Assembly: GCA_028718185.1 (NCBI GenBank)
Contig: JAQUMH010000003.1
Span: forward strand, 86,811-150,810
Origin: Elusimicrobiota bacterium
GTDB taxonomy: Bacteria; Elusimicrobiota; UBA8919
Direction: 5' to 3'
Length of the DNA: 64,000 bases
Below, piece after piece: positions 1 through 63,020 of this stretch. The notes under the pieces are model-generated. The model made no database searches. It worked only from the letters and a program-made list of their open reading frames with translations, and was not told the origin of the DNA. Positions within the stretch are counted from its first letter, which is position 1. Each line of letters opens with the position of its first letter. The position numbers were made by a program, and so were the translations under genes.

Positions 1-127
1 GATATATATTTCCTTCAGCCAATAGTTTGACCAGCGGTCATATTTACGAAGTATGTGTAAGCAGTGTTCAGGATACCATAGGTAACTGGGCGCCGGTGTC
101 TGCCTCAAACCAGGGTGATAGTTATGT
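1..127 (+). repeat. Copy of 1297-1423 at the window edge
   Basis: Bases 1-127 match 1297-1423 without a difference and diverge immediately after, an offset of 1296 bases (432 codons). The left part of the duplicated block lies outside the window. Confidence 0.95.
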
Positions 128-3100
128 AATAGGGTCAACACCTACCGTAAAGCGATTTTTATGGGATACCGGGGTTCCGACTTCATCAATGACGGCATTT
201 ACCTGTAATTCATTTCTATCGTCATTGGGAACAATATCCGGAACAGCAGCAGATAACAGCGGAGGAATTGGTGTCTATAATGTACAGGTCCGCATTTCAA
301 AAGCAGATGATAATTATGTATACTATAATTGGACGACTTCCGGCACGTGGATTAATGATTCAAATCTCTTAAACTGGTGGCAGGAAGCCACTTCAGGACC
401 GTCACCGTGGCAATTAGTGATAAAATCCACGGATGCCGGTGGTGGCACTCCGTTTACATCCGGCGAGCAGTATATAATCCGTTCAAGAGCATATGATAAC
501 ACAAAACAAATGACAGCCGCAGAAGGAGGACCTGTCGTTAATGTCTCTAATACCGAGTTATATTCGCCCGGAGTATGGACAGTCAATCGCACCTCATTTA
601 CCTGGGACAGTGCCCCGGCAATATCGTCGTTTACCGCCTCTCCACCTACAACCGGAGATGTAGCAACCAGCCCGTATTTTATAGGTTGGGCATCAGATAC
701 CGTGAACGCAAACGGTAATCCGTCTTCAAAATGTAACAGGGTAGAGGTTTTACTATTTGCAAAAACCGGAACATACTCCGGAAAATACTGGCAGGGTACT
801 GATAGCGGTTGGGATACGGGAGCAATATGGGTAAGAAGCGATACAAGAGCCAACTCAAGTTATTCAGTAGATAAATGTACCTGGTCAATTCAGGGACCTG
901 TTAATATGCCCACCGGCAACTATTGGATAGAATGTAGAGGAGTAGATAATTTAGGCACTACCCAGACGGATTTTACAACATACCGTTCAAGTATATCATT
1001 TTCTATAGATGCATCACCGCCTCAATCTAAAATAACAATACCCAATAGTGATAATGAGGGTATGGCACGGACTGTGTCCGGACTACCGACAATTTCCGGG
1101 ACTGTTATTGATATGTCAGCCGGTGGTGCAACCGGTAATATTACACAAGTCAAAATAACAATCCTTGACAGGTCAATAGGTAACGGCACAACAAGTTTCT
1201 GGTCATCAACGAGTAATAATTGGTTTTCAGGTGCCGTAAATGGTTCCACGTATGCTATATGTAATCTTGATACAGGACCTACTCCGGCTGTGTGGGGATA
1301 TATATTTCCTTCAGCCAATAGTTTGACCAGCGGTCATATTTACGAAGTATGTGTAAGCAGTGTTCAGGATACCATAGGTAACTGGGCGCCGGTGTCTGCC
1401 TCAAACCAGGGTGATAGTTATGTGCAGGGTTCAACACCGACTGTTAAAAGATTCTGGTATGAAACAAATAAACCCAACTCTTCCAATTTGTATCCTACTT
1501 CCGGTTTATACCTTTCCTCACTGCTGACAATAAGCGGGAATGCGGATGATACCGGCGCAACCACTAATGCAGGTGTCAATAAAGCACAGATATGTATTGC
1601 AAACGGGGATGATACGCAATCATATAATGCATGGACATCTTCTGCAACTTTCGAGACAAACTATCCTCACTGGATAGATATGTATTTCAATGGAACAGCA
1701 AGCCGATATGAAGCAAGGAATGAATATGAACTCAAGTATTCTTCAACTGCATTTTCAGAGGGAGCGACATATAGGGTAAGAATGCGTGCTATTGATAAAG
1801 CATATGATGCTGCAACTGAAGCATCAAACTCCGGGAATACCGAAAACACGTTTACATGGACAGTTAATATATCCTCGTTTATTTATGATAAAACACCGCC
1901 CCTTAATGTTGTAGTGACAGAGCCGCCTTCAACAAGAGAAAAAATAAATTCTCTTCCAACTATATCAGGTACCTGTGAAGATGGTATCAGAATAGCGGAT
2001 ACTAATGCAATTGAAATAAATATACAGGATGTAGATGGAACCGGCGCGCCTGCTACGTGGAAACTTAACGGTAGCGGCTGGCAGTCAGGGCTTGATGATA
2101 ATGTATGGATTGCGACCAATACATTTGTAGGTTATTCTTCGGGTACCTGGACATACACATATCAATATGTTGTAAATGCTTCAACAAATAGCGATAAATA
2201 TCAGATAAGGATAAGGTCTAAAGATAAAGCCGGTACTTATTCTGTTACATATTCAACACAATTTGTTTATGATTTATCAAACCCGCTGTCTGAAGTTAAA
2301 TATCCTAATGCGAATTATATAAGTTTAACTTCATTACCAACAATTTCAGGAACAGCATCATCTGATACCGACCCGACGGTCGCTGCACTGAAATATCCAG
2401 GCGTAAAAATTAAAATTAAAAATATGTCAAAGACATCAAATGACTGGTGGACGGGTGGTAGCTGGGGTGGAGAGACTTCAAGGAATGCGACCGCATTTAC
2501 AGCTGGTAATCCCTGCGTGTGGAGTTACAATGAAATATCAGCCAGTGATTTAACTTACGGAACAAGTTATCAGATATATGTCCAGGCACAGGATAAAGCG
2601 ACCAATACGGAAAACAACGGGACATGGGCGGTAAAATATACAATTACATATGATACTGCCCCTCCGACAACCCAAATTACAAACCCGATAAAGAACGGCG
2701 AGACAACAGGATTGCCGACATTGTCGGGTACCTGTGTGGATTCCAATGGGCTTTCCGGAGTATCCAAGGTAGAGATATATTTACAAGACGAAGATTCAGC
2801 AGAGGTATGGAGCGGCGGTAGTTGGGGCGCACCGCCTTTGGACAACTGGCCTGATGCAGATTTGGGATACAATCCGTCATTAGGATATTCAACCTGGACA
2901 TATGTATATACAGGTGATAATTTAAGTAACTGGTATTGGATAACTGCCAGGGGTTATGACAATTCCTCAAAGAATATAACAGGTGACAAAAATGTCCAGA
3001 CAGAGTTTTCAGTAGACACATCATCTTTCAGATTTATAGCGGACACGTCATTTACCGGACCGACCCTAATAACACGACCTAATAGGGATGACAATACAAT

Positions 3101-6100
3101 AGCCCGCAAGGACTTGACAACAATCTCCGGCACATCATACGATAACCGCTCGCATGCCCAGATACAAATAACATTAGAGGATTTGACGTGGGGTACAAGT
3201 TTCTGGAACGGTTCCCAGTGGTTTGACGGTGCAGTTAACGGTTCTACCAAGGTTGTTTGCCAAAAGAGCGGTTCAGGAACATTAGTTAATTGGTGGTATG
3301 ACTGCACAACAGCAATGACTAGCGGACATAAATATGAGGCGCGTGTTTATGCCCGGGATAATGCCGGTAACACGCTTGGCGAATATGGAGCATACAGTAA
3401 GGGTTCAACAGATACCGTGAAGGAGTTTTGGTATGATTCAACAGTACCTATATCAACAATAACAACGCCGAGTGGCGGGATAATCTCATCACTTGGTAGT
3501 CCGTTAGCGACAATTTCCGGTACATCAGTAGACAATCCATCTTCAGGAGCCAGTGGAGTATCTACAGTAAAATGGTGTTTATCAAATGATGCCGATACGA
3601 TGTCGTTCCATATATGGTCAACATCCGGGTCGTGGGATACCGGGTTATATTATAATGACGGCGCATCGATATCCGGCGGGTGGAATGACTGGAAAAGCGT
3701 ATTTTACAGTACGCAGGCATTAGTATCAGGTTCCACATACAGGTTACGGAGTAAAGCAATAGACAATGCAGTTGCAAGTATAGGCGAGGCAGCTGGTTCC
3801 GGCAATACGGAATCCGACAAATCGTATTATGATAGTCGTTTTAGGTGGGATACTAATGGACCTGACTCAAAGATAACAACGCCTGATAGTGATTCTGCCC
3901 CCGGTGGAGGAACAAAGCGGAGGTCATCACTGGCGATAATATCCGGAACAGCGGATGACGATTCAGGTAGCGGGAAAATAAATTCAGATGGAGTAAAGGT
4001 ATGTATCCGTGCAATCCCATCAGGTGGAGATGGGGGCGCCGGCACCAATGTAATGTATAGTGCGGGCGGGTGGGTAGCGACGCCCGTGAGCGAGTCCAAC
4101 TGGTACTGGTTAGATGCCGGTTATGTAGGATATTCAACAGGAGTATGGACATATAATTTTTCAGTAATACCAACGACATCAGGTTGGAAATACAACATAA
4201 TAGCGAATGCATATGATGCATCGAGTCCTGCGAACAAGCAGCAAACGTCAGGTTATGATGCAAATCTTTCATCCCGTACATTTATATGGGACCAGCAGAA
4301 ACCCGTGTCCGCTATTAGTTGGCCTAATGTATCATATATATCATCACTTGGAACGATAACAGGAAATTCTTCATTTGATACAGCAATAGAAGCCGGCGGA
4401 ATAAATCTAAAAGTAAAGAAAATGACAGATGGTTATATATGGACATCAGGAGGATGGTCTAATGGTGCTAGTGGTGTGGATATACTACCTACAGATAGTG
4501 GCGGAGAAGTATCGGATACGTATCAATATTTCTCACAAACATTGGTAGATTCACTAAAAAACGGTACCTCATACCAGTTTTTAGTAGCGGCAAAAGACTC
4601 CGCATTGCCAACAGGCAACAACGAAGATGTATCCGGCAAGTCATGGTGGACTGTGTGGTACGATTCTGCGCCTCCGACGACCCAAATTACATATCCTACA
4701 AACAATGGTGAGACGACCGCATTACCGACCATTTCCGGAACCGCAGCAGATGATCTTTCCGGTATCTCCAAGGTAGAGATATATTTACAGGACGAAGATT
4801 CTGCGGAAGTATGGAGTGGCGGTACTTGGGGCGCCCCGCCTTTGGCTGACTGGCCTGATGCCGATTTAGGCTACAATCCGACATTAGGCTATTCCACGTG
4901 GACATATGTATATACAGGCGCTAATTTAAGTAACTGGTATTGGATAACAGCGAAGGCATACGACAATTCTTCCAAAGCTGACGGTACCAAGAATGCGCAA
5001 TCGCTGTTTACCTTAAGTGTATCATCAAACCGGTTTATAGCCGACACCGCATTTAGCGGACCTACATTAATAACAAGACCTAACACAGATAATAATACAA
5101 TCGCCCGTAAAGACCTGACAACAATATCCGGCACATCATATGATAATCGTTCGCATGCCCAGATACAAATAACATTAGAAGACTTGACGTTGGGGACGAG
5201 TTTTTGGAACGGTTCCCAGTGGTTTGCCGGTGTAGTTAATGGTTCCACTAAGGTAGTTTGTCAGAAAGACGGTTCAGGAACATTAGTTCATTGGTGGTAT
5301 GACTGCACAACAGCGATGACGAGCGGACATAAATATGAAGCCCGTGTTTATGCCCGTGATAATGCCGGCAACCAGTTAGAAGAATATGGAGCATACAGTA
5401 AGGGTTCGACAGATACGGTGAAGGAATTTTGGTATGATTCCACAGTACCCGTATCAACAATAACAACGCCGAGCGGCGGAATAATCTCATCACTTGGTAG
5501 TCCGTTAGCGACAATTTCCGGTACATCAGTAGACAATCCATCTTCAGGAGCGAGTGGAATATATATCGTGAAATGGTGTTTATCAAATAACGACGATACA
5601 ATGTCGTTCCACATATGGTCAACATCAGGTAGTTGGGATACCGGGTTATATTATAATGACGGCGCATCAATATCCGGCGGGTGGAGTGACTGGAAGAGCG
5701 TATTTTACAGCACGCAGGCATTAGTATCAGGTTCCACATATAAGTTGCGAAGTAAAGCGATAGACAATGCAGTAACGAGTATAGGTGAGACAGCCGGTTC
5801 CGGCAATACGGAATCCGATAAAACATATCATGATAGTAAATTTAGGTGGGACACAACCCCGCCTGACTCAAAGATAACAACGCCCGATAGTGATTCCGCA
5901 CCCGGTGGCGGAACGAAGCGAAGGTCATCACTTGCGATGATATCAGGAACAGCGGATGACGATTCCGGTAGCGGAAAAATAAATTCAGATGGAGTAAAGG
6001 TATGTATCCGTGTAATACCTGCAGGCGGAGATGGCGGAGCAGGCGCCAATGTAATGTATAGTGCCGGCGGCTGGGTAGCGACGCCCGTGAGCGAATCCAA

Positions 6101-9100
6101 CTGGTACTGGTTAGATGCCGGTTATGTAGGATATTCGACTGGAGTATGGACATCTAATTTTTCAGTAATACCGACAACATCAGGATGGAAATATAATATA
6201 TTAGCGAATTCATATGACGCTTCAAATCCTGCGAACAAGCAGCAGACGTCAAATTATGATACAAATCTTTCTTCCCGTACATTCATATGGGACCAGCAGA
6301 AACCTGTGTCGGCTATTAGCTGGCCATATGTAACATATATTTCATCACTTGGAGCAATTGCAGGAAATTCATCATTTGATACAGCGATAGAAGCCGGCGG
6401 AATAAATCTAAAAGTAAAGAAGATGACAAATGGCGATATATGGACATCAGATGGATGGTCTTATGGTGCTAGTGGTGTGGATATAGTTCCTACGGATAGT
6501 GGTGGTGAAGTATCGGATACGTGGTTATATTTCTCACAACAACTGGTAGATTCACTGCAGAATGGTACCTCATACCAAATTTTAACAGCGGCAAAAGACT
6601 CTGCATTACCAACAGGTAACAATGAAAATGTGTCGGGTAAGTCATGGCAGACCGTGTGGTTTGATACTCAAAAAGCAACCTCAACAATACAATACCCGAT
6701 GGACCAGGGTGAGACAACAGGTTTTCCGTCGTTTTACGGGTTTTATTATGATAATTTAGCAATAAGCGGCGTAAAAATAAAATTGCAAAGGAAAGTTGAC
6801 GGCCAGTTTTGGAAAGCAGGTTCAGGCGCTAATGGAAGTTGGGAAGGTACGGCAGAGTGGAATGACGCCGAAGTTTACAGTTCTTCCTGGGTATACAGGT
6901 ATGGCGGAGCAACCGGTCTTTCTGAATGGTACGTTTTAACTTCTAAAGCACGGGACCAGGTACAACCGACAGCAAATGAGGAAACAACATTTACGGCAAC
7001 TGTTAACTCAAATACTTTTATAGTTGATTTAGCTCCGCCTTCTGTTAAAATAGTCAGGCCCGATACAGATGACCAGACAAACTTTTTTGCACGAAAGGAT
7101 TTAACAACAATATCCGGTACGTCTGTTGATAATCGTTCCAATGCTTTGATTGAAATTGCGATAAAAGATGTTACATTATCTGCGCTATGGCCCAACGGTA
7201 CATACTGGTCAGGTACCCAGTGGTTACCTGCATCATTTGATGTAAACATTACAACAAAAGTTGTCTGTACGAAAAGTGGAACCGGTACAAGCATTAACTG
7301 GTATTATGTTCTTGGCGGCGCAAATATGACATCAGGACATGTCTACGAGATTCGTTCAAGAGCAGTTGATAGTGCAGGAAATGCTCTGCCGTTTGATGCT
7401 AATGCGTATGTTCAAAATTCAACACCGACAGTAAAAAGATTTATGTATGACCCTACACCGCCGACATCAGAAATAACAAATTATACCGGTGGCGGCAGGT
7501 ACTCTTCAATTTTAACAATATCCGGTACTTGTTCCGATAATGACCCTGCAACTGTAGATGATTCGGGGATAGCAGACCTGAACGACGGTGGTGTACAATT
7601 TATGATACAGCAGGGTTCAAAATATTTGTACGTGTGGGCATCTTCATCAACGCTTGAATCAACAGAACATTGGATTACTCCTGACTGGGTATTAGGGCAA
7701 GAGGGTGCAAAATGGCAAAAGGTTATCCCATCTGCCGATAATGCTGCCGGACTACAAAATCAGGGTAGTTATACAATGGTATGTAAGGCAAAGGATAAAG
7801 CCAGACAAGCAGATAATGACACAACTACGACTCAGGGAAATATCCAGACAATACCGTACTCGATTACAATTACATACGATAACAGCAAACCGTCAATAGA
7901 AGTTGTAAGCCCGGCTGATGTCGCAAATAACCGTATAACCTCGTTGCCTACAATATCCGGTACGGCATATGATGATGCTCCGCTTGGTAATATACCTTCT
8001 AATAACGGTGTTGAATTGAACATTGTTGATTTATATGGTTCGAATTATACATGGGATGGTAATAAATGGTTAAATAACGAGGACTTGACTTTATGGATTT
8101 CTACCGGTTTTAATGCATATACCGGTGGTAACGGTTCAACAGGTACATGGACTTATGTAGTCCCTGTCTCGTCTTGGACGACCTTGCATCAATACAGGAT
8201 AAGAGCAAGAGCAAAAGATACAGCAAGCCCTCAAAATTATACAGTTGCTTATTCAACCCGTCTATTTACCTACGATACAACACCTTTAGTGACACTGGTT
8301 ACCAAACCGCCGATGTATGTAAATAATACATATATAGGTCAGATTTCCGGTACCGCTTCTGATACAGATTTTAACTATACACAAATACAGCTTCAGGTAA
8401 AGCGGCTAACTGACGGGCAAACTTTTATTACCGGAAGCGGGTTTAGCGGTGGTGACAACTGGCCTATTGCTACGGGTTCCTCGGGAAATGACTGGTATTA
8501 TATTGCAATTTCAACAAAAGATTTAACTGACGGTACATCATATTCCGTTGTTTCCAGAGCGACTGATTTGGCAGGGAATCCCGAATCACTGTTAAAAGCG
8601 TACACGACATTTTATTATGATATAACAAGACCTACACAGGCAATTAGTTATCCGCTTGATTCTCCAAACAATATTTCGTCTTCAATTTCAAGTATTTTTG
8701 GTAATTGCGGAGATGTTGTTCCTGGGGAAGGCAAATTTGCTGTCGGTATTGCTTCTGTATCTATAAGGATTCGTGATTTATCAAAAGGTAATGCAACGTA
8801 TTATGCAGGAACAAATGCAGAGGGCTGGAAAGAGGATTCAACAGGTGATTTATACTGGAGAGCTTGCGCACTATCGTCTAATACAACCGCATGGTGGTAT
8901 CCGGCCGGGACCGATGAAATGCCGACATTGACAACTGATATATCATACGATTGTATAGTAAGGGCAATGGACCGTGCCGGCAATTACGCTATTATATATA
9001 CCACCAGAACATTTAAGGTTGACACGACTCCGCCGACCGCCTCTTCAATAGGCAAACCGTCAACTAATGATTATTATTTAAAAGAACTTACCTCTATTTC

Positions 9101-12100
9101 AGGAACATCGCAAGATGCAAATAATACCTCAAGTATAAAAAAAGTTGATGTAACTATCCGGAACTTAACACTTGGCAGTACTTATTGGCAGGGTTCCAAT
9201 AATAGCTGGGTTCAAAGCTCAACAGTTACAACGGTCAGCGTAAGTGGTTCACCGGTTAGCTGGGCTTATACAATTGGCGGCGGAACATTTACAACAGGAA
9301 ACCAGTATCAGATAACAGTAAAAGCGTTTGATGCTATCGGAAACGGAGAATCATCACCGCCGACAAGGACATTTTTCTGGGATGTCAGTGCGCCCACAAC
9401 CACCATTACTAACGTTACCGAGGGTGCAGTGCTTGCCTCGCTTCCTACTATTAGCGGTAATATTGGTGACAGACCCTATATAAATCAGGCAGGCGTCTCT
9501 AAAGTAGAAATGCAGATTTATGATGGCGCGCGGGTAAGATATTATAACCCGTGGGCTACAACAAAGTGGGGTTCTGATTCTGTATGGTATTCTTCCGGTA
9601 CTGCCGGTGATGTATATATAGGCGGTGGTGTGTTTAGGACCACTGCTTCATGGGAAGATAATTATACCTACAAAATAAGGAGCCGCGGTTATGACTCCTC
9701 CAGAAATGACAGTGAATCAGTTTCAGGAAATGTTGAATCACCATACACAGAAAAGACATTTACGTATGATGCCGCTGCACCATTTTCAACCTTTACTTTT
9801 CCTTCCGTGGCAAATGGTACAAAAATACCGATGTTTGCGACAATATCCGGTACTGCTGCTGATGCCGGGGATAATGTTAATTTGAGAATTAATTCAGGTT
9901 TTGAAGGTGTAAATATTTATGATGCTACAGTAGGTTATTTAAAAACTTTAAATGCCTCACAACAGTGGGTCAGTGACAATGATTCCGGGATTTACCTGCC
10001 GGTTGTGTATACTCCATATACAGCAAGTGCTTCATCCGGAACCTGGACATATACTATAATATATCCGACTGCCGTCTGGACAAACGGTAACACATACAGG
10101 GTAAGAAGCCGCAGTCAGGATATTGCCGGCTGGAACGAGGCAAGCCCGGTTCAAAAAACATTTGTTGTTGATACTTCATCGCCGGCATCTTCAGTAGCAA
10201 TTCCATCGGGAGGGTCAATTGTTTCCACACTTCCTACAATATCTGTGAATGCCGATGCAGATAGTGTCGGCGTTAAAATCAGGTTAAAACATATTACAGG
10301 CGGGACAACATACTGGTGGACAGGAAGCTGGAATTCAGGAACTGATGATGACGGCGGGTGGATTAGTATAAGTCCTTCATGGTATTATTCACATGCAGAT
10401 TTTGTAAGTACAGCTGCATGGACTAATTCGCCTGTTATCCCGGGAACGACATTTTATCTCAGGACACAGGCGAGAGATGAGGCGACAAATATTGAACAGT
10501 TAGACAATACAATCACGTTCCGTTTTGATAACAAGCCGCCTACAGTTTCAATATCGGCACCGCCGCAGGAACTTACATCACCTAACGAGACATCAAATGC
10601 CAGGTATTCTGCTATTTCAACCGTATCCGGATATTGTTCTGATGTGCCGGCAGGAGTCAGTAATATATATGTACAGTTTATCCGTAGCGATAATAGTAAT
10701 TATTGGTCCGGTTCAGGCTGGGATACGCCTGTAACAACATTTACAGCCGTTCTTTCAAATGCAGCAACATACTGGTATAAGATAGCGCCAACTTCATGGA
10801 CGCACGATAAAAAATATATACTGAAAATATGGGGTAAGGACAGCATAAATAACGAAAATTATAATTCAGCGTCATATGTTTCTTCAAGAACATTTGTTAT
10901 CGATTCACAGGGACCGACAACAACAATATCAGACCCGGGGACCGGAACAAAAAGGAAATCAGTTACACAAATTGCAGGAACTGCACAGGATTCGGGCACT
11001 TATCCCTCTAATGTCAGTAGTGTTAAATTAAGAGTCAAGGACCTTACTTACCCGTCAACATACTGGCTCGGTGTTTCTGCGTCCTCTGCCTGCTGGACAG
11101 ACGATTCCAACACGTGGTTTGATGCGTCAGGCGGTGGTGCAACTTCAATATCCTGGACAAGTTACACGATAGATTATGAGTCAAATGTATGGATTAACGG
11201 CAGGTCTTACACAATATTTGCGAAAGGATATGACCAGATCCCTGGTAACGAAGGCTCACCTACCTCAAATACATTTACTTATGATACCACTTCGCCTGCT
11301 TCAACCGCAACAGTACCGATGAATGGAAGATATATTAAACCATTTGCAACCATTTCCGGTATTGCTTCCTCTGATACTTTGGGTGTCGGTGTCAAGATAA
11401 AAAAAGCCGGTGTTAACGAGTGGTGGTGGGGTGATTCCGGTTGGCAGGGTAGCGCTCCTGACCCGTGGCTAAGTTCGATAGGTGGTTCTGAGTGGACATA
11501 TACACATGCAAATTTACAGTCAGGCTGGACAAACGGTCAAACATATGAACTTACAACGGTTGCAACAGATACTGCCAAAAATATTGAGACATCACCAAAC
11601 ACAATTACATTTACTGTTGAATCAACGACTCCTACGGTATCAATAAAACTTCCGTTAGATACTAAATATTATCCTGCAACAACATTAGCGACTATTTCCG
11701 GTACGGCAAATGATTTATCAGCGAGCGCTGACGGTAAGTTCAATGTTTTGGGTTCAACAACAGTTGAGATTATTGTGAAGAAGGTAACCGGCTCGGCAAA
11801 ATACTGGGGCGGTTCTGACTGGGTTGATTGGCCCGGTAGTACTGACGAACTCTGGATGCCTGCTGATTGGTATCCGCATGGGGTATCTTCCGGTACCTGG
11901 AAATATACAATTCCAGTCTCATCGTGGTCCAATAATACTGATTACAGGATTTGGGTGAGAGTAAAAGATGAAGCGGGCAATAAAATTGATTATGCAGATT
12001 CTGACATTACAGGAAATTCAGGTACAAATAATTTATTCTACTGTGATAATACACCGCCGGAAACAACGGTAACAATACCGCAAAATTTGGTTCCAATAAA

Positions 12101-42100: not shown

Positions 42101-45100
42101 TAAAGTTGCAATAACAACACTTGACCCGAATGATGCGGCGATATCAGCCAAATATTTGCAGTATGGAACGACATATTTCTACCCGACACTCATTACTGCG
42201 GCGACTTACTGGACAATTACTGTTTCAACTCAGACATCAGAACCGCCTGGGTCTAATTATCTGCCGAATACATCTACTAAATTTACAGTTGAACCTAATT
42301 CAAGAGACCGTTTACAGATTCTTGTTCCGAACGAATCGGCAGTCCCTGGCGATGTTAATAATTTCGGGAAAACAGGTACAATTTCTCAAAAGGCAGCAGG
42401 GCAGACATTCACAATTACAGTTAATGGTTGTGATGCTTATTATAATGTGAAGACGGACGATTTAGGTGAAACATCACAACCGGTAGCATTTACAACAACT
42501 GATAATTATGTTGATTTAACAGCACAAAATAAAACACTTACCAATGGTCAGGCAACACTTAGTCTTGCTCTTGTTACTGTCTCAACTTGTGCAAGAATAA
42601 ATGCGACAAAAAATACTTATAGTGCCGCTTCTTCTGACAATATTGAAATTATTTCAACATCTCCTTACCGGTTACAGGTTTTACTGCCGGGCGAGACAGC
42701 AGTTCCGGGCAGGTACAATCAGACGCCTTACGGAAAATCAAGTACAATAACAACCAGAACTGCAGGGACATCATTTACAATCACAGTAAACGGTGTAGAT
42801 TTGTATTGGAATAAAATTATAACACAACCAGCTTCCACAACGACAATAAATATAACAACCTATGATTCTTACGATTCAGAACCGTCAAATTATGCGTTAA
42901 GTAACGGCTCGGCAACATTTACAATTACACTTGTAACCGTTTCAACTTGTGCAACGGTTACTGCATCCGAAGTGAATGTTAATTATTATCCTAATGACCC
43001 CAACACATCTGATTTAATGACTGTTGTGCCCGGTGCGCCGACTCAACTTCAGGTTTTGGTACCTGGTGAAACCGCAGTTCCCGGAAAATACAATAATGGT
43101 AGCAACCAGCCGCCTTACGGTAAGACATGGACCCAGCCGTTACCTAGTCAGGCAGGAGGCGAAGGATTTAAGATAACTGTTAACGCCTGCGATACTTACT
43201 GGAATAAATATACATCAGACAGTTCTACAAAAGTGTGGGTGAATACAGACGATAATTTTGATACAGAGCCGTCAACCCAGACACTGGTTTCCGGTACAAC
43301 CATATTCTATCTGACTCTTAGAACAGCGGGTCTCAGGAAGACGACAGCATATGCCGAGTTTACTTATTCGGTTGCGTATTCAACACCTATTACCGTTGAT
43401 GTTGGAGCTTATTATTACTTGCAGTTATTGGTACCCGGCGAGTACGCAGTTGCCGGTTCAACAGCAGGTGGTAAAGGCGGTTCTCCTGATACACGAACAG
43501 CAGGGACCCCGTTCTTTGTAACTGTTAATGCTTGTGATAAGGCGTATAATGCAAAAACTGCAGGTATGTCAGATAATGATATTGATATCTGGACTACGGA
43601 CCCGAACTCCATGTATTATTTAGCCGACAATGTTTCAAATGCAACACTTAAGTCAGGGACCACATATTATCCGGTAACAATGGTTACTGCATCTTTGTGG
43701 TCGGGTACAACTTATGTAGTTTATGCAAAAGACCTGGCTAATGGAAGTATTGGACAAGTTTATTCGCCGCCAATACCAACATTGCCGGGAACTGCAGTAA
43801 AATTGCAGGTCTTATTACCTGGTCAGGCATCTGCACCGGGTACTTCAAATGGTAAAACAGGAACACCTTCGGATAGAAAAGCGGGAACGCAATTTATTAT
43901 TACTGTCAATGCTGTGGATGCCAACTGGAACAGGGACATAAACTGTCCTGGTGATACAAATGTGACAATTCAGACAACTGACAGGTACGATAGCGAACTG
44001 GCAGGGCTGGACCTTATTTCAGGGACAACTCAATTTGCCATTATATTAAAAACAGGTGCTGTTGGGCTTACAGCAGGTGCAACACATCAGATATGTGCAA
44101 CAAATCAGACAGGCGGTTATGGTGTACAATCAAACACATCAACAGTTGTAACGGCGGTCCCGGGTAGTCCTGCGAAACTCTTGATAGTTTTACCAGGTGA
44201 AACTGCGGTTGGTGGTAAAAATACTGACCCTGTTGGAAAAACAGGGACACCTGCAGGTTGGACAGCGGATGTTTCAACTGGTATAGTAGTTGTTGCCTGC
44301 GATACTAATTTCAATGTCAGCACAGGGGCTGTTCAGCCATCGGTCTTCGCTGTGCTTTCTGATTTGTATGATGAATCTGACCAGACGCTTGCACTTATGG
44401 CTGGTTCCGGCTACAGGACATTCCCGGTTAAACCTTATACGGTTGGTCTATGTTCTGCAGCAGTAACTGCCAATGGATATGAATCCTACACATCAACAAA
44501 AGTTACAGTAACTGCAGGTACAGCAACAAAGTTACAGGTTCTTGTACCAGGTGAAACTACATTGCCTGGTTCACTAAATGGAAAATCCGGTACAGTTACA
44601 ACCGAGACAGCAGGGACAGCATTCACTGTTACCATAAACGCTTGTGATGGAAGATGGAATATCAATACAAGTAATACTTCAAATATACAAGTAACAACAA
44701 CAGACAACTATGATATAAACGACCCTAAGAGTTTGACGCTTCAATCCGGGACCACTTATTACTCGGCGACATTTGTTACGTCGGAAGGTATAGGTAGCGG
44801 GCATGTTATCACCGTTACCGGTGGTTCTATGACTAATGGAACTTCTTCCCCTGTCCCAATGAAATCAGGACCTCCTGAAAAGTTGCAGATTCTTGTTCCT
44901 AATGAAACACCGGTACCTGGTTCGTCTTCCGGAAAATCAGGAATTGTTACAAATATGACAGCCGGTTCTGAATTTACTGTTACTATCCGCGCTTGCGACA
45001 GTAACTGGAATATTACTCAATCGACGCCTATAGTTCAGTTAAAATCATTTGATGCTTATGACGATTCGCCTAACGGCTGGGACCCGTCAAACTTCCAGCT

Positions 45101-48100
45101 TGAGAAGACCGGGACCAAGACAGCAAGCGTTACATTAGTTACGGCAGCCGTATCATCAATGTCTGTTGTTGCTACTGAGGGTTATGGTTATAATTATAGT
45201 CCTTATGTTTCTTCTTCATTTACTGTTATTCCGGGTACTCCTAAACAACTTCAGGTTATAATTGCTGCGGTTGGTGGATTTTCAACTGAGGTAGAACTTC
45301 CCGGTTCTCCGACAGGTAAAACGGGAGGAATTATTGGTTCTATAAGCGCCGGTACACAATTTGATGTCCGGGTAAACGTTGTGGATGAATTCTGGAACAA
45401 GGTTACAATTGCAGGTGAGGGTAAAACCATGGCTGATGTAAAAGTTACATCACCGAGGGACGGTTATGATGTTGAACCGGATACAAGAACAATTGGGCAG
45501 TCAGGTTCTCCGGGCACAGAAACGTTTAGTGTTAGATTATTGAATGCATGTACCCAGCACATTTATGCTATTGATGTTGATGGTCTTTCACCGTCTTATC
45601 CGATTGGTGGCGACGTTACAAAACAATATTCTTCAACATTTACGGTAGCGCCTGCTAATACCGCGGGTTTACAGCTTCTGCTTCCTGGTGAAACTGCTTT
45701 GCCGGGTTATGGTAATTACCCGACAGGCGGTAAATCAGGTGCGCCTACGACACGGACAGCAGGTATCCAGTTTACAACCACTGTTAATCTTGTTGATAGT
45801 TTCTTCAATGTAAAAACTGATGACGCTGTATCAAACTCGGCAAAAGTATGGTTAGTAACAAATGACTTGTACGATGTCGACCCGTCAACTCAAATACTTA
45901 GTTTAGGAACTGCTGTTTTTGCGGATAATAAACTTGTTACTGCAACAACTACGACCTTGCCTACACCGCCATATACAACTATTGCAACGAAGAACAATGC
46001 AAGTAAAACAAATGATACCAGCCCTGTCTTTGCAGTTGCGTTTTCAACACCTTCAAGACTTCAGGTCATTTTACCGGGTGAGACTCCTGTTCCGGGAAAA
46101 TCACCTTACAATAATAATACAGGCGGAAAATCAGGTACACCTTCAACAAAAGTAGCGGGTGAAACATTAGATATAAAAATATATGTGACAGATGATTATT
46201 GGAATAGGATAGACAATTCACTTGGTAATGTTGCCACAGCAAGAGTTACATCAATTGACCCGCAATTTACTATACCTGCGGATATTACAATAACTCAGGG
46301 CTACAAAGAATATGGTATTGGTGGTGAAAATGCCTTGAAGACAGCATGGTCGACAAATACAGTATGCGTGTCAGATGTTAATGGTACTTTTGCCGCTTCC
46401 ACATCTACAATTATAAGAATTTATCCGAGACCGGCGTACTATATGAGTTTTGTTCAATATCCGTCCACAGTTACAGCAGGTAACCCGATTACAATGCAGC
46501 TTAGTGTTTTTGATAATTATAATAATCTTTGTTCAACAGGTCCAAATGTTTATACAGGAACTGTTAATTTTTCGGCAAAGACATTTTCAAACACAAAACA
46601 GAATCCATCATTGCCGAGCTTTGTAACATTTACACCACTTGATGCCGGTACTACAAATCTTATTAATGCATTTATATTAAAAAAATCAGGTTCCCGGAGT
46701 GATCCTGATCACTTTATACAGGCAGAAGATGCCGGTTCTTCAAGTATTTCAACTAATAGAACTGATTATTCCGAGAATGCAAAAATAACTGTTAATCCCA
46801 CTATTGCGCAGGGTTTCTATGTAACACCCGCTATACCTGAGCCGGATGCAATACAGGAGGTTGGCGGTGGTGAATCAAAACAGATAACCGGTCAGTATGT
46901 AGATATATATGACAACTACATTTCTTCCGAAGGTATTACAGTTTATCTCAATGTCGTGGATACCGGGACTTCGGTAAATGTTAGCAACCAGATACAAGAT
47001 TCGTTTGGGAATGTCATAATATCAACTAAAACCGATGTAAACGGCGCTGTCGGCGGACTTCTTGGCAGTATCTATTATGTAGTCTCATCCAAAAAAGATG
47101 ATGTTGCCCGTGTCTGGATTGCAACATATACTGCACCGACCGACATTTCACAATTTGTCGGTTTAAGACAGAATATTTCAAGAAAACTAAAAACCGTTGG
47201 CGGTGATGTGAGTCATTTTGTATTTATTGAGAAACCGGGTTCTGCTATTGCCGGCACACAATCAGCGAAATATAAAGTTGAAAAACGTGACAAATACGAA
47301 AATCCTACTTTCCAGGGTTCTATTGGGCATTATTATGTATTGCTTAAACTTGATGAAACGGAAAAAACATACCATTCTGCAGGTGGTTGGCAGTATCCGG
47401 GAGATTACGGGTTTAGGGATACCTCGGGTAATAATATCACACAGGTGGATATGCCGTATGGTACCTATCAGGCTGAGTTTTGCTACATTGACAAGATGGC
47501 TTCTATTCCACTTGGTGAAGATAATCGTTCGGGAACATGGCAGATAAGATGTGGAGTTGGTGCTGCCGCTGATGCTGTTGACCAGCTTTTGGTTAACCCT
47601 GCTGATATTTCTAAAGTTAATTTTGATAACCCGGCAAGAAAACTTACTGCCGGCAAACCTGAGGAATATATAATAGGTTCAGGTCCGGGTTCCACATTGC
47701 AAAACTTTGTAGTACAACTTCAGGACCAATACAGTAATCCGAAACTTTCAACTGCACCCTGTGTCATAACACTTTCAGTAGATAGAAATTCTGGTAACGA
47801 TACTTCTGTTGACACTTATGGTTTCTCGCTTTCCACGGTAACCTACTCACCGTTCCAGCCTACGGGTGGATTTGTCAATTTAATTACTACGGTTACGATA
47901 CCGCTTAACCAGTACTATGCGACTTTCTACTATATTGATACGGCGATTTCCGATGTGCAGGGTAGCGGTAAGCCGAAACTTATTGCTACGTCTAACTGGT
48001 CAATAGATACAGCAGAACAATCGGTAACGATAAAGCCTGATTATATCAAAAAGATTCGGTTCCAGAATTCATATCAGACACAGCCGTTAACAGCAGGTAC

Positions 48101-51100
48101 AACTTCACAGTCAATTTATTTCCAGACAAGCGATATTTATGCCAATCAGTCACCTGTTCTTGCTACTGATGTTGAAGGTGGTTATGCTGCATTCAAATTG
48201 TCGTCTGATGAAGTGGGAAAGAAACGGTTTGCTTCACCTCATTATAGTTATGGATGGAGTAATACTACAGGCACGGCAAGAATGTCGCTTGGTGAATCTA
48301 CAACTTCGTTCTACTACATTGGTACAATTGTCGGTTCTCATACATTTACAGTTGAAAGACCCGGCTGGTGGATTGCCGGTAAATCTTCTTTCACAATTGA
48401 TGCAAACAGAGTTGAATCATTAATGGTTGTGTTACCTGGTATCCAGAACAGGCGGCTTATAGCGTGGACCACTATCCAGTGGGAACCGAATTATACAACA
48501 GGTGTTACAACCGACACAAAATTTGTTGTCCAAACCCGTGATATATTCGGGAATGTTACTCCTGTTAAGAAAGATGTAACAATTAAACTTGTGACAACTT
48601 CTGCTGAGGGTAAATTTGAAAATCAGAAAGGGTTAGATTCTGATCCAATATGGGACAAGCTTGAAGTGATGATAGGTTCCGGCACAAGTTCAACTGTTTT
48701 CTATTACAAAGATAAGGTAGCGGGAAATCCGAAAATTACCTGCTGGGAAGCACCCGGTCAGTTTGATTATGAAATTATTGACGCTACGGTATCACCTACA
48801 ATTACTCCTGCGGTAGCAGGCTATTTCTCGGTTTTTGCTTCAACACTTACGGCATCAGTCAGAACAGTAGTAGGTGTTAAAGTAATAGCCAGAGATGAAT
48901 ATAGTAACGTTGCTTCCGGTGATGATGTTAACGGTAACTATTATGTCGGGACTGCATCAATTGGTGTAGTTTCTAACTCGGATAAGGGGACAATTCAACC
49001 GGCAACCGTTAAGTTTGAAACAACAGATAAAGGCGAGAAGTCAGTAAATGTCCAATCAGCATATATTGAAGAACTTCAGGTAAATGCAACTGACTACAAT
49101 ACAAAGTTCCCTGATGCAATTAGCGGCTGGACTTCCTATAAAGGTAAAGCTGCTTCCTCATTCTCATCTGATAGCATTAAAACTATAGGTGCAATGTTGG
49201 TACCACAGGACTCGGTTTATGAACCGAAGCTTAGTGGAAATAAGGATTTGTATCAAGGTGATGGTTATAGAGTCAAATCACCGGCACCTATCGAAATGGC
49301 ACGGCTTGCACTAAGTGTTGAAGGAGGTAATACTTTTAAGTGGGAATGGTTGAGGGTTGATTTAACAACATCTACCACACTTGACTGGAGTTATGTAACA
49401 GAGGTTGCTCTTTACCTGGATGCTAATGGGAATGGAGTTTTTGATGGGGAAACAGAGTATAGTCCTGTACCATTTGATACATTTATTGCCTCTACTACAA
49501 TGACGCAGAATAAATGGTGCAAACTTGATTTTTCAGGCAACATTCAGACTATAGGAGCTGCTTCTCAGAAATACTTTATTACGGTTAGGATTCCCATGAA
49601 TGCTGAGAAGGACAAGTTATTAGGTTTAAGAATAAGGGATACTGACTCACTATTCGGTACTGGTGTTTACCTTGCTGCCAATAATTTAGAGTTTAAAACG
49701 AACGATGCTTATATAAGAACTAAACCGCCTCAGGTTAGTATTGAACCTTTTGATATAGCCGCATGGTGGGACCCGTTTGGTGCAGTTGAACCGCCGCTTG
49801 GCAAATATACAACTGTCCAGCAAGGGACCGAAAGAGTAGGTATGTTGAAGTTCGGTATGTGGACAAGTGAATTCACGTCGAAATTAAAGGCAGTCAGGGT
49901 TGATGCCATAGGTACATGTCTTGATAACAATCGTTTATTGGGTGATATTACTAAAGTACAGCTCTGGCGTGATGCAGCCGAGGACTCAGATGGTGTGTTG
50001 AGAAAAAATATAGATACTTTGATTTCAGAAGTTCAGTTTTCAACAACAGTTGCTACATATTTGCCGTGTGAAGATGTTGTGGGTACGGATGCGGATGAAA
50101 CGCTTATTGAACAAACAACTCACTATTATTATATTGTGTATGATATAGGTGCAAGTGCCTTTGCAGGTGATACAATTACAGGTGAAAAAGGTGATACAAT
50201 CGGTGCCAAAATACCCGAAGACCCGTTTGTTTTAATAGGTGGTGAATTAGCAGGAAAAGAAGTACCGGGACAAAATGTTTATCCGATACAATCTTCATTA
50301 GCAACAATAACACCTACTGTTGATATGGTAACACTTTCACCGAGAGTGGAACCGACTGCCAGTATACCGCCTGTCGGTGTAACACAGGGCGATAGTAACA
50401 TAGCAATGGGAAGATTTAATATGGTCGTTAATGCCAATGCAGCGGTATGGAAACAGTTAAAAGTGGACAGATTAAGTGCTGCTTCCGGAAGTGATAGCGA
50501 TATTAGTGCTATAAAAATATGGTATGATAAAGATGATAACGGACTTTTTGATCCGAATGTTGACCAGGTTGTTTCCAATCCTCCAAGGTATTTTGGCGAA
50601 CCGCCGGATGATCCCGGTAAGGCGACACTTACAATTACTGGACCATTTGATGGTCAGGAAATAACAAGAACCAGCAAGACATATTTTATTACTTATGACT
50701 TTTCATACTTTGCTTCAACAGGTACTACTAACCTTGGTTTCCGTCTTGCTACTACAAATTACATAATTCTTCAGGAACCCGACCAGGTTAATACTGCTAA
50801 CATACCGCAATCAAAACAGACAGGAACAATGAAAGAATTTGAGGATGTAGTAATATGTGACCCGATTGACCTGGTACCCGTGACACTTTCTCAGGATACG
50901 AGCAATGTTGCAATGATTCGTTTTAATATGAAGACAGAAAATTCATGGGCGCCGTGGAAAGGAATAAAAGTAAAGCGGCTTGGTAGTTCAAGAGATACAG
51001 ATGTAACAATAGTAAAAATAGTAAAAGATAATGGTGATGGCGTATTTAATGTGGAAAAAGATGTAGTAATAGGCAGCGGTACATTTAACAATTATGGAGT

Positions 51101-54100
51101 ACCGGGCGAAGCAGATATCAGATTCTTAACTTCTCCGGTGAGTTATACCCAGATTATTTCAACATATACCCAGTATTACTATGTTGTGTATGATATTTCC
51201 AATTTAGCGGTTCCTGACTTTTATGTAGGTGCAGCATTTGAGATGATGGGTTCAACTAAGGCAGTAGATGCTGCTAAACAGTTTAATATTCAGACACCAA
51301 ACAGTATGGGTACAAATAAACTTCCTTTTGAATCATCAATGGCTTTACTTGTTCCGACACCTCGAACTGTTACAATAGTACCGACAGATATGTCCAAGAC
51401 TGCCTGTGCGCTTGGCAGTGGTATAGGAATATCTGAAGCAAATATTCCTATAGATCCTGCTAATGGCGGTGCAGGAGCATTTGACACTCAAAGCACACCT
51501 GCAGGCAGAAGAGTTCTTATAGATAATGAAGTTATTTATTATTCAGGTATTTCAACAGGGGTCCCATATAATTATCTTTTAGGATGTACGAGAGGCGACC
51601 CGACACTTGCAAACACGCTTGTTTCAGGGCATACTGCAAATACTACAGTATGGAAAACACTGGTTCAATCTGAGACAAATGTACCTATGTTAAAGATGTC
51701 GGTTTCTTGCGATGGCTATAATGTCAAATGGACACAACTACAACTAAAGAGAGAAACACTACAAGGCGGTAATGTTAATGATTCGGATGTCATAGAAATA
51801 AAGGTATGGCGTGATGCTGAAGGGCTTAATAAAGGTAGATTATCACCTGATGATGTTCTTATTTCTACGGGTAGTTTTTCTCCTTACAAGTTTGGTTCGC
51901 GTGGTAAGGGCTACGAAGGTGCAGATGGTATGGCATATATAGATTTGGATGACCCTGAGTGGAAGGGAATATATACACCCGGAGTTCCCGGTCAGTATGC
52001 TGTAATTACCACAACACCGGTAGTATATTTTGTTACCTTTGATATATCGCAATCAGCAAGGGAGAATGATTCAATCGGCTGTTCAGTATCCAGGTTAGTG
52101 ATTAATGACCCGAACACTTATTCAACTGCTAATTTCCCGATAAAATCAGCGACCTCGATTATAAAGCCGACCAGAGATATTATGGAAGTGAGATATGAGA
52201 ACAGGGCTAAGAAATATGTTTTACAGTCAACAACCGGTTATGCTATGATAGCAATTGATTTAAGGACTGCCACAAGAGAAGCGATATGGACAGGTTTAAA
52301 GATTAAAAAGACAGGTACTGCTATTGATTCGGATATTTTCAATATAAATATTTTCAAGGATACCAATTATTCTAACGAGCTGGATGCCGGTGATGAAATG
52401 CTGACACTTGGTACCGATAAATTTATTGAAGGTTCAGCCGTTATCAATTTGCCTCAAAAAAGCTATCAGACCATACATTCGTATGAATATCAGATATTAA
52501 AGCAAAAACAAAACCCGTCATGGAACCAGAGATATTTTGTTGCTTATGATTTTAATCCTACGGCAATGGTAGGTAATTATGCCGGTATTATAATTGAGAA
52601 CACTTCTGACTTTTATGTTGTTTCGCCGGATGATGTGATGTTTAAAGGGATGCCGCCTCAACCGGAATCAGATAAGTCTACAATAATGGATTATCCGGAT
52701 AAGATTACTGTTCAGATGTACGAAGTCTCTCCGCCTTCTGTAATTCAGGGAGATAAAGATATTAAAATGCTCTGGATAAAGATGAAGACGGATGTTGCAG
52801 AAGCGACATGGAAGGCGCTTTTAGTGGAGAGAATACCGGCATTCCAGGCGGCAGCACAGGGTGCAGGCGGCGGAACAAACAGGGATGTCCAATATATTAA
52901 AATTTACAGGGATGCTAATGGTGATGGCGAGTTGCAGATAGGTGATGACCCGCTTATATCTTCCGGGACCGACCAGTTCCCGGCGGATCTTGTAGGTAAT
53001 TCCAAACTTATTATGTTGACAGAGCCGCAGCAAATAGGTGCTTTGTCATGGAAATCATATTTTGTTGTATATGATGTTTCACCTACTGCTTTAAGAGAAA
53101 ATACTTTAGGTATGAGGATTGCATCAGAATCATTTTTCTTACTTGATTTATCAAATGATAGAGCAGATACAGTAAATCCATTTCCTACTTTTGAAACAGC
53201 ACCATCTGCAATTGGTCCTATAAAAGTGACAGCAGCAGGCCAATTCCTGATACCGCCCGGACTTACCCAGGATAGACAATATGCTTTGATGTCGTTTGAT
53301 ATGAAAGCCCATGTCCATTCGGTTAAGTGGACAGGACTTATGGTTGAGCAGACAGGTACTTATAACCCGCCGTATTCTCTTAAAGGTGACGGTATTTTAT
53401 CGGAAATTGGACTTTTCAAGGATAATGGTGATGGCGTATATGGTTCAGATGATATATTTATTTCATCAGCAATACACGGTACTGCCAACTTTATAAACGG
53501 TGTGGCACGTCTTAATTTCTCAACTCAGACAGTAACTACAGCACTGTCAAGATACTTTATTGTCGGTAAGATAGGCAGAAAAGATACTCTTGGCGATACT
53601 ACCGAAGGGGAAACTGTCGGAGTACGGATATTTGCATATAATAACTTTACCGTAGACCCTTATACAGCAGTTTCTTCAACATTCAATGCGTTCCCGTATG
53701 AATCACCATTAGGGATTGTGAGACATTTCTCAAAAGCAAGTGAGCCGATTGTTCATGTTGAAGAATGGATTAATTCGCAGAATGAGGTGAGAGCGTCATG
53801 GATACCGGGCGAATCCCCTGATCCTTTACAATTCCCGATTACTAACAACGAATACGGAATTTCAACATTACCCGTAACAAAAGATGATGATAAACCTGAT
53901 TTTTCAGACGGATATCAGGATGTACAATTATCAACCTTTATTATTGCAAGTATGCCGATACCTCTATCGGATAATGCGACTTATTATATTGCAGTCCGTT
54001 CAGTTAATAGTTTGAAAATTGCTTCATTGCCCGGAATGGCAAAGTTCAGAGTTGATTTAAGCCCTCCGACTACACCAGGCAAACCGGTTCCGACAACGTT

Positions 54101-62048: not shown

Positions 62049-63020
62049 ATGAACCCTATATTTGAAGTTCCTCAGGAACTGAAATTAAATTTACCTTTAA
62101 TAGAAAAGCTTTACGATGTCGCAATCATCGGGGCAGGACCTGCCGGTATGACAGCCACTGTTTATTGTTCCAGGAAAAAATTAGATACGTTGCTAATCAC
62201 TAAGGACATAGGCGGTCAGGTGCTGGTTACCAGCGGAATTGAAAATTATATGGGCTATCAGCACATAACCGGCAGAGAACTTTCGGAAAAGTTTTATAAC
62301 CAGATATCACAGTTCCCTATATCTCTATTGAAGGATGTAAAAATAAGTAATTTGGAGCTATCCAAAGATAAATTTGTTCTTAGTTGCGAGGGGAAAAAGT
62401 ATTTTTCAAAAACTGTGATTATAACATCCGGCAAAAGGGCTAAAGAGTTAGATGTTCCTGGCGAGAAAGAATTTTTAGGCAAAGGTGTTGCTTTTTGTTC
62501 GACCTGCGACGCGCCTCTTTTCAAAGATAAGGTAACTGCCGTTATCGGAGGCGGGAATTCTGCCTTGTCAGCTGTAATAGACTTGCTTTCATATTCGCCC
62601 AAAGTCTATTTAATAAATATTGCAAGTACAATACAAGGTGACCCGGTACTTATTGAAAAAATAAAAAATTCAGGCAAAGTAGAGATAATATTAAATACAG
62701 AAGTTGTTGAAATAAAAGGCGAAAAAAGGGTTGAATCTGTTGTGGTTAGAAATAGTGATACAAATCAAATACGACAGATTGATGTTTCGGGGGTTTTTAT
62801 AGAGGTGGGACTTACACCAAATACCGAGTTTGTAAAGAACGTCCTGAGCCTTAACAATAACAAGGAAATAATTATTGATTGTAATAGCAGAACATCTGTT
62901 CCTGGGATTTTTGCTGCAGGTGATGTTACCAGTACCACCGGTAAGCAAATAATCATTGCTGCAGGTGAGGGTGCAAAAGCCGCACTTTCAGTTTATAAGT
63001 ATCTGTTGGAGACAAAGTGA
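62049..63020 (+). CDS. AhpF/thioredoxin-reductase-like FAD disulfide reductase
   Basis: 323 residues. The FAD site is VAIIGAGPAG (Gly28, Gly30, Gly33). GGQVLVTSGIENYMGY follows as in the TrxB/AhpF family. The redox pair is Cys150-S-T-Cys153 (VAFCSTCDAP). The nucleotide site is VIGGGNSALSA (167-172). The second FAD motif is GIFAAGDVT. Where NADPH-dependent TrxB has HRRxxxR, this protein has VYLINIASTIQGDPV; the stretches VEIILNTEVVEIKG, VFIEVGLTPNTEF and KQIIIAAGEGAKAAL resemble AhpF. It probably uses NADH and reduces the CxxC protein encoded next. It lacks AhpF's own N-terminal thioredoxin folds; the neighbour supplies a two-fold equivalent. Its stop overlaps the next start by four bases (GTGA). 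No clear Shine-Dalgarno is seen. Confidence 0.92.
   Translation: MNPIFEVPQELKLNLPLIEKLYDVAIIGAGPAGMTATVYCSRKKLDTLLITKDIGGQVLVTSGIENYMGYQHITGRELSEKFYNQISQFPISLLKDVKISNLELSKDKFVLSCEGKKYFSKTVIITSGKRAKELDVPGEKEFLGKGVAFCSTCDAPLFKDKVTAVIGGGNSALSAVIDLLSYSPKVYLINIASTIQGDPVLIEKIKNSGKVEIILNTEVVEIKGEKRVESVVVRNSDTNQIRQIDVSGVFIEVGLTPNTEFVKNVLSLNNNKEIIIDCNSRTSVPGIFAAGDVTSTTGKQIIIAAGEGAKAALSVYKYLLETK

Follow-up and report, generated by a model that had tools for sequence, protein, structure and literature searches.

Gliding in Flavobacterium is described as depending on the adhesin SprB, type IX secretion and a proton-driven motor (PMC8986121). The system that we describe here, from its genes alone, shares with it a large, repetitive, probably secreted surface protein, type IX-style components and an ion-driven inner-membrane motor. 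In contrast to Flavobacterium, the genes encode a MotA/MotB pair, a FliF-FliG-TPR fusion and a PorV-TPR protein, and GldM was not found in a search that lacked a positive control. SprB has about one third of the length of the giant protein. The Agl-Glt machinery for gliding in Myxococcus also has an ion-driven motor of the Mot/Tol/Exb superfamily and a cytoplasmic coiled-coil partner, but, to our knowledge, neither FliG nor a giant type IX-like substrate. MotA, MotB, FliG and, in two genomes, the C-terminal domains of FliF are shared with the bacterial flagellum. However, FlhA was not found in 291 of 294 genomes, the FliF and FliG parts are fused with TPR, and a giant secreted protein is linked to them.

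A 2023 preprint by West-Roberts is said to deal with giant genes of Omnitrophota and Elusimicrobia. Elusimicrobiota have been named as rich in huge proteins (PMC11573180), and giant genes there have been called common; those of the superphylum were described as uncharacterised in function, and their proteins were read as surface weapons or cellulosome-like structures (PMC12057145). The gene analysed here likewise encodes a giant protein in the same superphylum; however, a defined family with a fixed architecture and a conserved motor operon, as found here, is not mentioned in the available text of the two papers (PMC11573180; PMC12057145). A FliF-FliG fusion or a MotAB operon beside a giant gene was also absent from the titles and abstract beginnings of the best-ranked papers of a literature search that covered no preprints, which is not proof of absence. 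Thus, giant proteins in Elusimicrobiota are already known (PMC11573180; PMC12057145), and the family definition and the link to a motor appear to be new, as no record of them was found in these sources. We propose, at about an even chance, that a non-flagellar machine driven by MotAB and FliG moves the giant protein, as its surface fibre, along the cell, probably for gliding.

The window, that is, the whole stretch of 64,000 nt that was analysed, corresponds to positions 86811-150810 of contig C3 of the source genome G000 (3.03 Mb, 27 contigs). It contains the following features:

1..54755, + strand: giant gene, the 3' 18,250 codons (frame open over 3..54755; a further 5.4 kb or so of the gene and an assembly gap precede the window at C3:81259-86810, so that the gene begins about 5.5 kb further left)
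180..30644, + strand: R1 array, 80 Ig-like units of about 124 aa each, with matches to Pfam Big_7, Big_3_3 and Big_13 (7 more units lie left of the gap and about 2-3 in the gap)
20763..26284, + strand: duplication within R1, with an offset of about 3.68 kb, an exact stretch of 212 bp and 69% aa identity over the compared 1.8 kb
31041..46442, + strand: R2 array, 42 units of about 118 aa each, predicted tandem Ig-like beta sandwiches
46443..53972, + strand: C-terminal region with three of four putative calcium-binding loops, recognised by pattern only, near 49419, 50526 and 52911
53973..54416, + strand: fn3-like stretch, below the Pfam cut-off and kept in the family, with the fourth calcium-loop-like motif near 54225
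54417..54752, + strand: C-terminal domain of the FlgD_ig / Por_Secre_tail type by profile matches, probable type IX sorting signal
55142..57307, + strand: neighbouring gene for a sensor histidine kinase, closest to the NCBIfam model MASE3_PAS_HK but under the cut-off of that model, possibly unrelated to the giant system

The original prediction, a frame of more than 18,250 codons without a stop and with its start upstream of the window, proved to be correct. The ORF 3..54755 (+) encodes 18,250 aa and runs off the left edge, and the same frame goes on left of the gap in an ORF that begins at C3:81025. Base composition gives a stop-free run of 18,250 codons a chance of about 10^-500; in the other five frames, there are 645-1654 stops. 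Extension to the left revealed a likely start, followed by a hydrophobic stretch that resembles a signal peptide by eye, and no catalytic domain was found there by Pfam or NCBIfam. The ATG at C3:81259 is the likely start codon; it was chosen because C3:81160-81249 in part resembles repeats that are scattered along the contig. Fragments of such dispersed intergenic repeats are also present in the window at 58897, 61910 and 63785.

The window begins directly after a scaffold gap of 100 N at C3:86711-86810. Immediately left of the gap, 127 bases repeat C3:86981-87107 exactly; immediately right of it, 127 bases repeat C3:88107-88233 exactly, and both of these copies are located within the gene. 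We infer that a short-read assembly with k=127 was broken at a repeat; one copy of the 999-nt stretch C3:87108-88106 (333 codons) would then be absent from the gap. With one 999-nt copy the frame closes across the gap without a stop, whereas it is broken with the deposited 100 N. Given one such repeat unit in the gap, the full giant protein has about 20,401 aa. The GC3 of the giant gene is 0.34, near the values of six other G000 genes (0.26-0.34), and therefore its higher GC content comes from the amino-acid content. Directly downstream of the giant gene lies the histidine kinase gene, and response regulators are located further on. At 62049-63652 of the window, a thioredoxin-reductase-like gene overlaps a protein disulfide oxidoreductase gene (TIGR02187); both match the model for an AhpF homologue.

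The protein had been described as lacking a visible enzymatic domain and as consisting of scaffold-type repeats, and both statements hold. Pfam detected no enzymatic domain in the part inside the window or in residues 1-1,300 of the upstream part, nor did NCBIfam, used alone, in upstream residues 1,301-1,895. The R1 units match bacterial Ig families, and the R2 units, which have no Pfam match, are predicted to be tandem Ig-like units: a model of an R2 pair, based on 41 rows of paired units, had a pLDDT of 93.3 and a pTM of 0.86, and in Foldseek it retrieved tandem Ig-like proteins with a probability of about 1.0, at low TM-scores. The variable N-terminal domain of about 1,000 aa has no match in Pfam, NCBIfam or PDB, and weak partial matches were found in four genomes besides its own, among 99; its single-sequence structure model had a mean pLDDT of 32.8. 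A match to EBNA2_N in the second piece of the window was below the Pfam cut-off and was taken as chance. As to the calcium loops of the original prediction, four motifs like D-x-N/D-x-D/N-G were found by pattern. RTX repeats (PF00353) had no match in G000 at E≤0.001, while two controls matched. A giant adhesin of the RTX / type I secretion type was rejected on this absence of PF00353 matches.

With the last 1,250 aa as query, 24 of 41 genomes, G000 included, matched at E≤0.001, and the giant-gene stretches of six relatives (G004, G036, G027, G011, G029 and G005) were read. Complete ORFs free of N are present in four of these, with 17,343 codons in G036 (stop to stop), 17,613 in G027, 14,455 in G011 and 13,077 in G029; the ORF of G004 (18,641 codons) contains gaps and is truncated by a gap at its N-terminus, and that of G005 is in pieces. 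According to repeat profiles, the order R1, R2, C-terminal region is the same in G000, G004, G036, G011, G027 and G029, and thus kept across several families of Elusimicrobiota, which speaks for the proposed reading, and the N-terminal domain precedes R1 in G000 and the four complete relatives. R1 varies little in length, from 64 to about 90 units (80 plus 7 left of the gap in G000, 81 in the truncated G004, 80 in G036, 76 in G011, 75 in G027 and 64 in G029). The R2 counts are 42 in G000 and G004, 32 in G036, 14 in G011, 27 in G027 and 9 in G029. Between two genera, the repeats are colinear unit by unit: the R2 units of G000 and G004 pair 42:42 (37 reciprocal best pairs, rho 1.0, mean best identity 0.61), and their R1 units form 50 reciprocal best pairs (rho 0.98). 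For R1 of G011 and G036, which belong to different families, 38 reciprocal best pairs were found (rho 0.92). Thus, the array order is kept between nearer relatives; for the remaining pairs, order was mostly weak or none, and R1 paralogues were often as similar as orthologues.

It had also been claimed that selection keeps the frame intact. This agrees with dN/dS values of 0.26-0.40 between internal duplicates and of 0.08-0.11 for the C-terminus compared with G004 and G005, the latter at a nearly saturated dS of 2.0-2.6. That the giant frame is a product of assembly, or that in nature it consists of several shorter genes, is extremely improbable. The scaffold gap at the left edge of the window and the exact repeats of up to 212 bp within the gene are in line with such a view, as is the single-contig genome G291, in which a colinear R1/R2/C-terminus is split over several frame shifts (L189-L192, C1:283089-314716), either by long-read indels or because the copy has decayed. 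This broken copy also counts against our reading. Against an artefact stand the purifying selection, the four gap-free ORFs of the same plan in other assemblies and the unit-by-unit colinearity between relatives; the last two rule out a collapsed or invented repeat ORF.

The distribution of the family was assessed with the profile A1, the last 260 aa of the giant protein, in a sample of 294 Elusimicrobiota genomes. It was detected in 97 genomes at E≤1e-20 and in 77 at E≤1e-60. Therefore, the claim that such giant genes are very rare and known mainly from Omnitrophota and a few other lineages was not borne out; the host phylum is Elusimicrobiota, and 77-97 of its 294 genomes carry the family. 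Of the 77 giant-gene genomes (E≤1e-60), 53 have an ORF of 5,000 aa or more and 35 one of 10,000 aa or more, and the longest ORF has 19,358 aa; the shorter ORFs may be due to contig ends. An ORF of 24,396 aa in G028:C22 has only a weak C-terminal match (at 71999-72244) and possibly represents another giant family.

The picture of a passive scaffold had missed an operon of FliF-FliG, MotAB and PorV genes that is linked to the giant gene in relatives. In G004, G011 and G036, the giant gene is followed downstream by a gene for a PorV-type barrel with TPR and then by one for the middle and C-terminal domains of FliG with TPR. In G011, these are followed by an 800-aa protein that, judged without a predictor, has the look of a coiled coil, and by MotA and MotB. 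The usual order is giant gene, PorV-TPR, FliF-FliG-TPR, coiled coil, MotA, MotB.

FliG_C was found in 120 of the 294 genomes. It is present in all 77 giant-gene genomes (E≤1e-60) versus 43 of the 217 others, which argues for our reading, with a Fisher p of 5e-40 that overstates independence because the genomes are related. The fusion was scored by length as a FliG ORF of at least 560 aa, with one 408-aa fragment also let in, and among the matches listed such a long FliG ORF was found for 73 of the 77 giant-gene genomes. Of these 73 genomes, 42 have it on the strand of the giant gene, 3.1-12.2 kb downstream, 4 have it at another place on the contig and 27 on a different contig. Two observations count against a tie: the long FliG and the giant gene are not neighbours in 31 of the 73 genomes (in 27 of those they are on different contigs), and for at least 24 genomes, including G001, G003, G008 and G200, a long FliG ORF is listed and the giant gene has no match at the cut-off. 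A second class of FliG_C proteins of about 480-580 aa also exists beside the 600-700-aa fusion, e.g., G000:C9:11802-12122.

Altogether, 38 of the 42 near loci and 20 others were read. The 38 near loci contain PorV-TPR in 38 cases, FliF-FliG-TPR in 38, MotA in 31, MotB in 30 and a match to a coiled-coil profile of low specificity in 30. PorV-TPR and FliF-FliG-TPR lie behind the end of the giant gene in 38/38 and in direct order in 37/38, again in favour of our reading; in G060, an additional set of FliG, MotA and MotB separates the end of the giant gene from PorV-TPR. Of the eight near loci without MotB, four stop at a contig end; those of G005, G120, G076 and G040 do not. The 20 other loci all have PorV-TPR and the fusion, and 13 have MotA and MotB; in G200, MotA/MotB are on the opposite strand. 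Outside the phylum, FliG was looked for in nine genomes. Five genomes of Omnitrophota, Saganbacteria and Margulisbacteria had no FliG_C match, one Poribacteria-labelled genome has a 335-aa FliG and a 98-aa fragment, and three are labelled only 'bacterium', one with a FliG ORF of 489 aa and two with ORFs of 586-826 aa, one of these two having the same coordinates as the sampled G272. We consider it very likely that the giant gene and the motor are functionally tied, and with a linked motor operon in relatives the likely function shifts from a passive scaffold to a moved surface fibre.

In G000 itself the arrangement is different. The operon (C3:50083-61275) lies 20-31 kb upstream of the giant gene and ends 20 kb before it, which counts against the proposed reading. 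It encodes PorV-TPR, FliF-FliG-TPR, a 1,163-aa coiled-coil-like protein, a 787-aa fn3 protein with CHU_C and a PorP/SprF-like protein with LysM. MotA and MotB had no match in C3:40001-80000, the 40 kb searched around the operon, a further point against. Inside this operon, the fn3 protein with the CHU_C type IX domain (L003:17446-19809) is followed by the PorP/SprF-like protein with LysM (L004:4-1275), and matches to the fn3 protein were also found in G004, G005, G120, G076, G040, G034 and G200. Just ahead of the operon, a protein with CBM6 and F5/F8-type carbohydrate-binding domains is encoded (L003:8400-9476).

The motor parts are flagellar-type in sequence. The FliG part matches FliG in PDB at 1e-56, and MotA of G011 matches flagellar MotA at 1e-52 (PDB), both in support of our reading; the same MotA matches NCBIfam MotP at 3.5e-78, below the curated cut-off. 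MotB matches MotB in PDB at 6e-39. The C-terminal domain of FliF was found in the N-terminal part of the fusion in G011 and G036 at E of about 1e-5; it was not over the Pfam threshold in G004 or G000, which counts against, and all four fusions align over most of their length. The aspartate in the membrane helix of MotB (motif like YADLMTE), which we take to be the functional residue, is present in 39 of 40 aligned sequences (four of 44 MotB ORFs were left out for length). In MotB of G011 (L026:19051-19677) it is replaced by glycine in an otherwise complete operon, which counts against our reading. In a conserved stretch of FliG that by resemblance is presumably the torque helix, D444 is kept in 61 of 62 sequences, D450 in 57 and R458 in 60 (numbering of the G000 ORF). 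Thus, sequences of the FliG torque domain and the MotAB stator are present in the family loci, and for G000 this applies to FliG only.

FlhA (PF00771) was found in only 3 of the 294 genomes at E≤1e-20, and G000 was not among them; 4 of 14 controls matched, all of them flagellated. For genomes without FlhA, we therefore rejected the idea that the linked FliG serves a flagellum. In one genome, G214, the two systems coexist: FlhA and a 320-aa FliG_C ORF are on C78, and C132 carries the fusion next to the giant gene. Flagellar genes are given as absent in Elusimicrobia in a figure legend (PMC7031533). A role in Zorya anti-phage defence (ZorA/ZorB with ZorC/D or E) was also rejected: ZorB profiles match the MotB of G011, the only match among the four operon proteins scanned, and no PADLOC profile matched MotA, FliF-FliG or PorV-TPR at E≤1e-5.

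A sorting-like C-terminus had been predicted as well, and the last domain indeed resembles type IX sorting domains by Pfam and PDB matches. In eight family members scanned (E≤0.1), FlgD_ig was found in 8/8, Por_Secre_tail in 3/8, a fraction that counts against our reading, and CHU_C in 2/8. In PDB, the domain matched FlgD at 0.0015 and PorU, in its C-terminal part, at 0.0082; NCBIfam gave no match. G000 contains 74 matches to the domain at E≤0.01, a point in favour, although 74 is not a protein count, as some matches are short and four are within one ORF of 4,198 aa. Six copies on the examined stretch of C3 end 0-7 codons before the stop.

PorV-family matches above the cut-off were found in 6/8 genomes, and in six genomes the PorV-TPR proteins themselves exceed it, which supports our reading. 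At E≤0.01, the numbers of matches were 53 in G000, 60 in G004, 37 in G036, 28 in G027, 22 in G011, 17 in G029, 2 in G009 and 4 in G013. The dozens of PorV-family genes of G000 lie in many cases close behind sorting-domain genes: for 21 of 46 (46 of the 53 were taken), a sorting-type domain ends at most 1,500 bp upstream on the same strand, compared with a mean of 3.8 and a maximum of 11 in 500 rounds of a shifted-position control, in which contig ends were approximated by the last match. Apparently, such neighbours are dedicated substrate-carrier pairs. Bacteroidota, by comparison, use a single shared PorV.

For SprA, partial matches were found in one ORF of 1,729-1,827 aa in 8/8 genomes, all below the curated cut-off, and no control genome matched; the protein has no SprA match in Pfam or PDB, which counts against our reading. 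In G000, a PorV-like gene and a peptidase gene with FlgD_ig (over the cut-off) and Por_Secre_tail (below it) precede this ORF at a distance of two ORFs. GldM was found in 0/8 genomes, a weak negative, since no control genome was over the cut-off either. From the sorting domains, the PorV family and the SprA-like ORF below the cut-off, a type IX-like secretion route is probable, albeit not proven.

The gene itself, its layout, its conservation, its linkage to the motor genes, the sequence identity of the motor parts and the lack of a detectable FlhA are documented by the results above. Secretion, attachment, coupling and movement, which we infer, would proceed as follows. The secreted fibre of about 20,400 aa would comprise a signal peptide (by eye), the N-terminal domain, about 90 R1 and 42 R2 units, the C-terminal region and the type IX-style sorting domain. 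It would cross the inner membrane by Sec and leave the cell via the SprA-like channel, and its C-terminal domain would anchor it outside to the PorV-family outer-membrane protein that carries TPR. Across the periplasm, this protein would be linked to a ring of FliF-FliG-TPR in the inner membrane; MotA/MotB would turn the ring using ion flow, with the long cytoplasmic coiled-coil-like protein as a partner. In this way, the motor would pull the giant fibre over the surface of the cell, and the movement would probably serve gliding.

The main rival, unlikely in our judgement, is that the giant protein is exported via the SprA-like channel with power from the MotAB/FliF-FliG motor and is not moved later. 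GldLM powers type IX secretion in Bacteroidota, and both the linkage of the motor operon with a PorV-family gene and the failure to find GldM in 8/8 genomes, albeit with no positive control, would fit such a role. However, G009 and G013 have the SprA-like gene and few PorV-family matches but no FliG_C match, so the route seems to work there without the motor, and the motor tracks the giant gene. Rather improbable, too, is a static adhesin, an S-layer-like coat or a scaffold that binds prey or host, with the motor serving another surface activity. Such a role would suit repeats that are all Ig-like, the lack of a detected catalytic domain and the published view of the superphylum's giant proteins as surface weapons or cellulosome-like structures (PMC12057145); it is at odds with the co-occurrence (77/77 vs 43/217) and the gene order kept in 37/38 loci.

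We consider it very unlikely that the giant protein is an external filament spun by the fusion ring, a flagellum-like propeller without flagellin. The stator and rotor sequences are truly flagellar-type, which speaks for it, but the export gate FlhA is present in 3/294 genomes only, and the proposed attachment site is a PorV-type outer-membrane barrel. We therefore return to the moved fibre. In roughly equal measure we believe and doubt that this is a new motility machine, in which MotAB turns a stand-alone FliF-FliG-TPR ring and a PorV-TPR adaptor connects it to a moved, type IX-secreted Ig fibre of 13,000-20,000 residues.

The giant genes of the superphylum, described as uncharacterised in function (PMC12057145), thereby gain a concrete set of partners and a testable mechanism. 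Many genera of one phylum carry a testable candidate, FliG fused to a FliF-like part and TPR, adjoining MotAB and a giant secreted fibre. If true, the flagellar rotor would have gained a second role here, with no flagellum attached.
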